Of a stretch of DNA of 64,000 nt, positions 14,780 to 17,700 are shown piece by piece; position 1 is the stretch's first letter, and each line of letters begins with the position of its first letter. Origin of the DNA: Echinarachnius parma (Eukaryota > Echinodermata > Echinoidea > Clypeasteroida > Echinarachniidae); NCBI GenBank assembly GCA_037951105.1, contig JBAMJV010002081.1, positions 1 through 64,000 of the forward strand. Reading direction: 5' to 3'. The position numbers and the translations under genes were made by a program. A model generated the notes under the pieces. The model did no database searches, was not told the origin of the DNA, and saw nothing but the letters and a program-made list of their open reading frames with translations.

Positions 14780-17700
14780 CTGGAGCAAGGAAAGGAAATG
14801 GAAATGGATATGTTAATAATGACGAGGATGGTAATAATAATATATATATAACAATAAAGACATTATAAAAATCAATAGCTAAAACAAGTTCCATCTTCTT
14901 GGAACAGCATATACATCCAGTATGATGGGCATCGATCCAACCCACCAGCACCAACCGAACAATGCCAGAAACTTTTTACCCATAGTCAACAAGAAAAGAA
15001 GCTAATTTCAAACTTTGCTTGCCCGAAAAAACAGAGGCCCAGTTATAAAGAATGACAATTTCTATTGATTGTACAATTGATTAAATTTATTGTACGAATG
15101 ATCAATCGATATGCCATATTAATTGATTGTACAATTAATTGTATATCTTTTAGTGATTGTACAATCAATTAAATTTATTGTACGAATGATCAATCGATAT
15201 GCCATATTAATTGATTGTACAATTAATTGTATATCTTTATCTTACTAGGCCAAAGTGTAGCGACAGTCTCTCCACATGCTTTTTTAAAATTATCGTTATA
15301 TTATTAATAGTCTTCTTTTCAGCAAGGATTTAATGAGGAACATTGGGTAAAAATAAAATGCCAAAAAGAGCCCCCGAAAATCATAAAAGAGCCCCCTAAA
15401 ATTTGCAGAGTTCACTGCAAATCAAAATTTTGAGTGTTATTTTCATGCAGGTAAGCTTGAAAAGTAGCCCCCAAAAAATACATTTTTAATTTTTCCCTGG
15501 TATTGACAAATTACCTGCATCATTCTTTCTTAAGATTATCAGAATTTATATAAATTATCATCATTACTTTTAAATTTTAATAAATGAAATGAAAAAGAAA
15601 ACGAGTAAGTTACCTTGCGACCAGCTGAGGTGTCTCTCCTGACGGTTGATGGGGTACCGATATGTTGATGGTTACCACCACCATGGGGATGGTCCACGGG
15701 GTTCATGGCCACACCACGCACTCGCGGCCAGCAGTTGCGCTTCACCTTGTACTTGAAGTAGGCACGGCCAGCCTTCAGCAGGGGCTTGTCGATACGCCCG
15801 CCACCAGCAACAACTCCTGGAAAACAGAAGGGAAATATACATAATCAGTGCAAAATTCATGCACTTGTTTTCAACAATTGCGCTAAAGCAAACAAATTAT
15901 TCATAATCATTTGCAGCCAGCAGTTGCGCTTCATCTTGTACTTGAAGTAGGCACGGCGGGCCTTCAGCAGGGGCTTGTCGATACGCCCGCCACCACCAAC
16001 AACTCCTGGAAAACAGAAGGGAAATATACATAATCAGTGCAAAATTCATGCACTTGTTTTCAACAGTTGCGCTAAAGCAAACAAATTATTCATAATCATT
16101 TGCAGCCAGCAGTTGCGCTTCATCTTGTACTTGAAGTAGGCACGGCCGGCCTTCAGCAGGGGCTTGTCGATACGCCCGCCACCAGCAACAACTCCTGGAA
16201 AACAGAAGGGGAATATACATAATCAGTGCAAAATTCATGCACTTGTTTTTAACAATAGCGCTAAAGCAAACAAATTATTCATAATCATTTGCAGCCCGCA
16301 GTTGCGCTTCATCTTGTACTTGAAGTAGGCACAGCCAGCCTTCAGCAGGGGCTTGACGATACGCCCGCCACCAGCAACAACTCCTGGAAAACATAAGGGA
16401 AATATACAAAATAAGTCCATCAGCCTCGCATTCTTGGCCAGCAGATATGATAACTCAACAAGTATTTGAGTAGGCAAGGCCTGCCTTCAGCACTTCAGCA
16501 GGGGCTTGTTGATACGCCAGCCTCCAGCAACAACTCCTGGAAAACGCAAGAGAAATGTACAAAATCAGTGCAACATTCATACACTTGTCGTCAACAGTTG
16601 ACCCATAACTCTGTCTTCGCCTTATATTTGAAGTAGCCGCTGCCAGCCTTTGTGGCAAGGGTTGTCGATATGGCCATTAGCAATAACTCCTACTAACTTG
16701 CACTAACACTTAACCACATTTCCCCCCTTTTTTCACAAATTGGCAGTCCCAACAACCACATATTTGTATAAATTGTGATCGTGTATGTTTTGTCTGTCAA
16801 GTGCATTGGTATATCTCTACAGTGATGAAACATGCTACACAAAAATTCGAGCTATAATTAATTATTACAAATGACATAAGATGTTACTTACCGACCATGG
16901 CCCTGTTGGCCGAGGGGACGACCTTCTTGGCCCCGGACGGAAGCTTGATGCGGGACTTCTTGGTCTCTGGGTTGTGGGAGACCACGGTGGCGTAGTTGCC
17001 CGAGCAGCGAGCCAGCTTGCCTCGGTCACCGGCCTTCTCCTCCACAGATGAGATGACGGTTCCCTCGGGCATGGAGCCGATGGGCAGGACGTTGCCAATG
17101 TTCAGGGTGGCTGGGAAGAAATGGGCAAAAGACATTTTTAAACATGAATTATAGCGTTTATTTTGTTAGTACCTTGACAAGGAGTACAGTCAAACCTGCC
17201 TTAGTGGCCACCTGTCTATAGCAGCCAACTTGCCTATATATAAATTACTGGCCACAAAAACTGATCCCCTGCAGAGAAAAACAAGGTTATGGAACCTGTC
17301 TATAGAAATCATGTCTACAGTTGCCACTTATTTTGCTTCCCTTCCCTTATTTCCTTTCTCTACAAATATTTTCCACATCTATTGCCAATTGGCAGGACGC
17401 GCCAATGTTCCGGGTGGCTGGTAAGAGATGGGCAAAGGAACATTTTACACAAATTACATTTTTTCCCAGCAACTTGATGAGTAGCATTTCCTATCTCTCT
17501 AAAATATCTCTTGTGTCTTTCAAAAACATAAAAGGATCTTCTTTTACATAGAATTTCTTATATACGTAAAAGAAGGTACCGGTACTTTTCTAATTCTTCA
17601 CTAAAAACAAATGATACAATGTAGTACAACAGTTAAACCCCATTGCCTACTGAAACCTGGTGGTCCCTGTATTCATTATTTGGGGATTCCAGAATCTAGT

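Follow-up and report, generated by a model that had tools for sequence, protein, structure and literature searches.

Partial copies of exon borders upstream of RPL8 exons in Echinarachnius parma: an extreme case of local tandem duplication

Splicing research has long asked, usually with designed minigenes, how a real acceptor is distinguished from a decoy that is nearly identical to it. The RPL8 gene of Echinarachnius parma raises this question in a natural setting, as the acceptor of its exon 4 lies behind several partial copies of the same border. Do these copies serve RPL8 in particular, or are they remnants of a process that reaches many exons?

Border copies upstream of RPL8 exons 4 and 3

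RPL8 occupies the minus strand of the window—by which we mean the whole 64-kb stretch of DNA that was analysed—and is made of five coding exons (Table 1), exon 4 being flanked by introns of about 1.1 and 0.8 kb. The joined protein scores 152 bits against Pfam Ribosomal_L2_C, and the solved uL2/RPL8 chains of the PDB match its final 93 residues. A search of the assembly (1.2 Gb in 14,790 contigs) with this protein gave eight matches; none lies outside the window's contig, and three correspond to the array copies c1 to c3. Neither a second RPL8 locus nor an allelic contig was found among these eight matches.

Table 1. Positions in the window of the RPL8 exons, of the border copies and of the DDX3 fragments
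Feature	Positions	Strand	First exon base	Remarks
RPL8 coding exon 1	20838..20974	(-)		from ATG
RPL8 coding exon 2	20371..20512	(-)		
RPL8 coding exon 3, real	16892..17110	(-)	17110	
RPL8 coding exon 4, real	15614..15816	(-)	15816	203 nt; donor GT at 15613
RPL8 coding exon 5	14708..14779	(-)		includes stop codon
189-bp unit of real exon 4	15727..15915	(-)		90 nt exon + 99 nt intron
Copy c1	15916..16104	(-)	16005	acceptor module intact
Copy c2	16105..16293	(-)	16194	acceptor module intact
Copy c3	16294..16419	(-)	16383	about 36 nt of intron part left
Older copy c4	16420..16602	(-)	16536	outer limits approximate; AG and tract kept
Oldest copy c5	16603..16691	(-)	16689	outer limits approximate
Decayed copy of exon-3 border	17384..17446	(-)	17417	AG kept
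Donor-like AAG/GTGAAG inside real exon 4	15740..15748	(-)		7.5 bits
Donor-side fragment of DDX3 exon 41959-42069	42210..42425	(+)		GT kept
Acceptor-side fragment of DDX3 exon 48294-48425	48133..48196	(+)		

Six partial copies lie upstream of RPL8 exons, as the sequence-only reading had claimed: one belongs to exon 3 and lies 307 nt upstream of it, and five belong to exon 4; the order on the gene strand is exon 3, c5, c4, c3, c2, c1 and real exon 4. Four near-identical 189-bp units, i.e. the real one and c1 to c3, span the intron/exon-4 border. The 189-bp steps that had been proposed at 15916, 16105 and 16294 are recovered by TRF (period 189, 3.7 copies, 96% matches, 15727-16416), and a repeat search gives three 300-nt copies at the same steps, with 97% and 95% identity to the first. 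The array is made of direct, adjacent repeats of one local segment, and the repeat unit holds the intron/exon border (about 99 nt of intron and 90 nt of exon). When the window is compared with itself by BLAST, the main repeat reaches E = 0 and the exon-3 border copy E = 1.4e-11, which excludes that the repeats arose by chance. Two other origins were rejected: a retrocopy fragment, because the RPL8 copies contain the 3' end of the intron; and a dispersed mobile element, since a DNA search of the whole assembly with 15900-16400 returned three matches, all at this locus, in a search that skips very common words, so that rarity is unproven.

The history of the array can be read in part from the differences between its members. 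Counted over the first 90 exon nucleotides, 4 differences separate c1 from real exon 4, 2 separate c2 from it and 4 separate c3; c4, whose exon part carries an 8-nt insertion, and c5 are the only clearly older copies. Divergence rises with distance from the real exon in steps rather than smoothly, and c1 to c3 show no gradual increase. In the alignment the exon part of c4 extends beyond the break point of c1 to c3, and c5 ends elsewhere; as these break points differ, more than one duplication event took place, and serial duplication had been rightly recognized. At the exon-4 acceptor we infer at least three events, which would have formed c5, then c4 and then the recent 189-bp run c1 to c3, while a single event may account for the exon-3 copy. 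Simple serial copying seems not to be enough, however: c1 and c2 have one exon change in common, and one intron base is common to c2 and the real unit, against c1 and c4. This mixed sharing suggests that the units, c1 to c3 probably included, have exchanged sequence as well. Besides, GCG (Ala) stands in c5 in place of the GTG (Val) of the real exon, and Ala is the residue found there in three PDB alignments of RPL8; possibly c5 has kept here a fossil of an older state of the exon.

Other features of the locus and of the window may be noted. In RPL8 intron 2 a unit of 105-113 bp forms tandem arrays at 17632-17743, 18290-18600 and 19111-19928; blocks of the same intron, 17740-17892 and 18147-18280, recur with 82-87% identity at 21168-21319 and 21399-21537, upstream of coding exon 1; this recurrence might reflect a mobile element or the duplication of an upstream region. 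No structured RNA reached the Rfam gathering score when the whole window was searched. A galactose-3-O-sulfotransferase-like gene lies at 61688-63311 (-), its ORF 61688-62650 scoring 208 bits against Pfam PF06990. Elsewhere in the assembly, the single COX1 match (C14600) has AAA at a position where Asn is expected, ATA at several where Ile is expected, AGA at three that suit Ser, and 12 in-frame TGA codons; these usages agree with the echinoderm/flatworm code, and the protein looks like that of an echinoderm, which makes an echinoderm source probable. The PDB chain 11he_L8 ('60S ribosomal protein L8', 345 residues, presumably vertebrate-like as its sequence reads) contains its C-terminal part twice (165-254 and 261-345), possibly through a gene-model error; it repeats residues 165-254 almost whole and was taken as unrelated to the array.

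Splice sites and reading frames of the RPL8 copies

The copies c1 to c4 retain a branch-site-like motif, a pyrimidine tract and an AG. The branch-site motif yTnAy is found at -29 in the real site and in these four copies; from -23 to +3 the acceptor of c1 is identical to the real one, and those of c2 and c3 are each one base off. At the opposite, the AG of c5 is preceded by a purine-rich stretch, with no yTnAy within 45 nt upstream; having lost tract and branch motif, this acceptor looks dead. The description of the copies as competing 3' splice sites would thus be a fair one of their anatomy, for c1 to c4, which look like complete acceptor modules.

Donors are another matter. Between 16890 and 15600, the GT sites that score 4 bits or more are limited to 16697, just before c5, then 15745, 15714 and 15675, all within real exon 4, and the real donor at 15613. 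That the copies come without a donor, as had been noticed, holds: between 16697 and 15745 no GT of at least 4 bits could make a copy a cassette exon, and cassette exons were rejected on this ground. The same lack bears on the idea that unused copies engage splicing factors and slow the removal of the intron. Decoy exons are indeed reported to promote intron retention or detention; yet the RPL8 copies have no donors, unlike decoy exons, which makes such a detention very unlikely here. One of the GT sites inside real exon 4 deserves a comment. The sole change common to c1, c2 and c3 in the first 90 exon nucleotides replaces by A the G of the donor-like GT at 15745. This loss hints at selection, its chance being estimated at about 3-6% (roughly 3 to 5 of the 90 positions would suffice) for a coincidence noticed post hoc.

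Every upstream acceptor, if used, leads to a premature stop: after 49 codons for c1 to c3 (then TGA), 16 for c4, 22 for c5 and 23 for the exon-3 copy. The acceptors and open frames that had been attributed to the copies are confirmed as to the complete-looking acceptors of c1 to c4, but the frames are short and c5 looks dead. By the established rule, an mRNA whose stop comes too early, ahead of a later exon junction, is a target of nonsense-mediated decay (NMD). The stops of c1 to c5 fall 243-1008 nt before the exon 4/5 junction, which is where AS-NMD places them, and NMD would be expected.

Such an arrangement recalls regulated unproductive splicing, in which the upstream acceptors would be poison sites tuning the level of RPL8 through NMD of its own mRNA. 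The intact look of the acceptor modules c1 to c4 and the stops behind all upstream acceptors would fit; ribosomal-protein genes use control of this kind, and PMC2689934 includes the RpL8 gene of Drosophila, which has an alternative isoform, among NMD targets. On the other hand that fly isoform differs by an upstream reading frame and not by copies of this sort; chance alone gives stops in intron sequence; c5 looks dead and the fragments decay; and the same anatomy is found beside chaperonin and DDX3 exons, as set out below. We consider this regulation unlikely.

Exon fragments beside other genes and in control intervals

The sample comprised 40 exons: those of RPL3 and of four chaperonin (PF00118) gene pieces from the assembly, picked for closely spaced exons, and those of RPL8 and DDX3 from the window. 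An exon was counted when its overlap with a direct duplication (at least 50 nt long, E ≤ 1e-4, 40-600 bp apart) came to 20 nt or more. By this count 15/40 exons share sequence with a nearby direct duplication, or 13/35 without RPL8: 4/5, 2/6, 4/4 and 1/5 in the chaperonin pieces, 2/5 in RPL8, 2/9 in DDX3 and 0/6 in RPL3. The DDX3-like helicase gene, at 38600-48425 (+), was found by tblastn with a human core sequence; of its 10 tblastn pieces, the nine counted include 42213-42314, which is itself the fragment of exon 41959-42069, and this leaves the tally unchanged. One chaperonin match (C7269:53543-53911) has internal stops and uncertain borders. Two more loci stand outside the count, namely RPL15, found through its fragment, and L045, a locus of three exons with one sharing about 25 nt.

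Among the 15 exons the fragment is acceptor-side in nine and donor-side in six. The AG is kept in 6/8 acceptor-side fragments whose site falls inside the alignment (three more are unresolved), and the GT in 5/5 aligned donor-side fragments; this tally took in RPL8 c1 and c4 and RPL15, and the donor-side fragment L041 5560-5787 is not among the alignments. The framing of the copies as a peculiarity of RPL8 finds no support: partial exon copies also lie beside chaperonin, DDX3 and RPL15 exons, some at the acceptor and some at the donor. When eight ribosomal proteins served as queries in a protein search, a single partial copy, that of RPL15, appeared among 27 matches; this search, in which 26/192 candidates were scored and allelic contigs were counted twice, has a much lower sensitivity than the comparison of DNA.

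The acceptor-side copy of RPL15 is present in two allelic contigs, at an upstream distance of 186 bp in the first and 157 bp in the second, and its AG is preserved each time. When the two alleles are compared, the fragment shows 4/81 differing sites as well as 24 gap columns, against 2/221 and no gap for the real exon. The same intron holds a short stretch similar, by eye, to the donor end of the previous exon, the GT being lost. Two contigs of a chaperonin gene, which we took for alleles (99.5% identity over 1396 nt), carry the same exon fragment; at about 2137-2441 of L040 (C6105), an element whose inverted ends begin with GGGGTGTTTCACAAAGAT has inserted into this fragment and interrupts it. 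By eye, RPL8 intron 1 also has a start resembling the GGGGTGTTTCACAAAGAT element, on the gene strand after the donor at 20838. Matching exons are found in four contig pairs (C8375/C6105, C12267/C2198, C2865/C6031 and C2931/C1736, two of which were compared by DNA), so that at some loci both alleles seem to have been retained in the assembly.

These pairs bear on the reality of the RPL8 array, which, sitting on one contig only, might be suspected to be an artefact of assembly. Its copies differ among themselves, c4 and c5 strongly, and like fragments stand in both allelic contigs of two other genes; those of RPL15 and of the chaperonin gene are thus not single-contig artefacts and predate the split of the alleles. 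An artefact at RPL8 is hardly credible.

Are exons the favoured place of such duplications? Among non-exon intervals of the same loci, 378/2041 (18.5%) qualified, or 220/1746 (12.6%) without RPL8, and so did 14.9% of 3800 intervals from 19 random 10-kb stretches, all of which are contig starts, where repeats may be over-represented. The frequency of fragments beside exons is thus about 2.5 times that of the controls (binomial p = 0.004 for 15/40 against 0.185; p = 0.001 for 13/35 against 0.149). This excess over the 15-19% of control intervals, which persists without RPL8, is what would be expected if exon borders were hot spots of duplication, by the position of nucleosomes or by transcription-linked breaks. 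However, we reason that selection on an exon roughly doubles the time during which it can still be aligned to its copy, and this alone could give up to a twofold excess or so; and many duplications, with a similar spacing, lie at a distance from known exons. We thus regard border-directed duplication as quite unlikely. In 190 kb sampled, short-range duplications form 46 clusters over about 12% of the bases, away from known exons as well; at slightly stricter thresholds the density per 10 kb is 2.2 clusters in the random stretches, covering 11.4% of bases, and 2.3 in the window, covering 8.8%.

The fragments themselves look little constrained. In 16 alignments, some of them on one exon and c1 to c3 left out, the exon-fragment differences number 35, 28 and 77 at codon positions 1, 2 and 3; 67/140 change the amino acid and three are stops. 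Against a 1:1:1.7 expectation the third-position excess is slightly above (p = 0.07), a pattern which is roughly that of an unconstrained fragment facing a constrained exon. The intron sides, differing at 66/519 sites against 126/1176 for the exon sides (c1 left out), give a weak signal in the same direction.

Acceptor choice at RPL8 and known systems

We consider it likely that the RPL8 copies result from recurrent local tandem duplication, mostly neutral, with exon-border fragments that decay, a real acceptor chosen by exon definition, and NMD as a backstop. Short tandem duplications, mostly about 60-400 bp apart, would arise often across the genome; one that crosses an exon border would leave in the intron a fragment of the exon together with a splice site. 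The RPL8 fragments would be non-coding and decaying. The spliceosome would recognize the 203-nt exon 4 through both of its ends, real acceptor paired with real donor, and pass over the first acceptor, and a wrong choice, ending in a premature stop, would be removed by NMD. RPL8 is an essential gene, and with a single locus its real acceptor at 15816 must often be reached past four look-alikes.

With the specificity for RPL8 gone, the main support for a regulatory role of the copies is lost; we do not favour such a role, which the Drosophila listing of PMC2689934 keeps open. The array rather appears as an extreme and useful case of pervasive local tandem duplication, and as something more ordinary for RPL8 itself. 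More tentatively, and leaning slightly against it ourselves, we suggest that in this lineage about one third of conserved coding exons have a partial echo in the adjacent intron, often with its splice site intact, that decoys of equal strength are routinely ignored by the spliceosome, and that the loss of the GT in c1 to c3 reflects selection against pseudo-exons.

In the open-licence literature searched we found no paper describing widespread partial copies of exons in introns. A genome with many natural decoys, graded from identical to dead, from near to far and on both sides of exons, would make an exon-centred rule testable by RNA-seq. If that more tentative suggestion is true, the genome amounts to an extensive natural test of exon definition, of which the four working-looking acceptors of RPL8 are the extreme case. 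Annotation pipelines may also choose wrong exon borders in such genomes.

Three known systems come close. In the exon-duplication model of novel introns (PMC2891723, PMC4974935), a local tandem duplication likewise copies a splice site with exon sequence; the RPL8 copies differ in being multiple, with similar fragments beside many exons, and, as they bring an acceptor without a donor, they create no new intron, unlike in that model (PMC2891723). The unproductive splicing of ribosomal-protein genes (PMC2689934, PMC3315480) shares with RPL8 an alternative site that leads to a premature stop and probably to NMD, but the RPL8 anatomy also occurs in unrelated genes and is known from sequence alone.

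A further likeness is with the duplicated splice-site constructs of Reed and Maniatis (cited in PMC9225289), where near-identical sites compete and differ mainly in position. The intron-centred rule of these authors predicts the first acceptor; the exon-centred rule described by Carranza et al. predicts the acceptor nearest the real donor (PMC9225289). For acceptors at least 20 nt apart, Carranza et al. report an overall upstream preference that is reduced in the exon-definition class (PMC9225289), so that exon definition at RPL8 is something we infer. Compared with the constructs, RPL8 is a natural case known from its DNA, in which four upstream acceptors stand in series in a single-locus gene.
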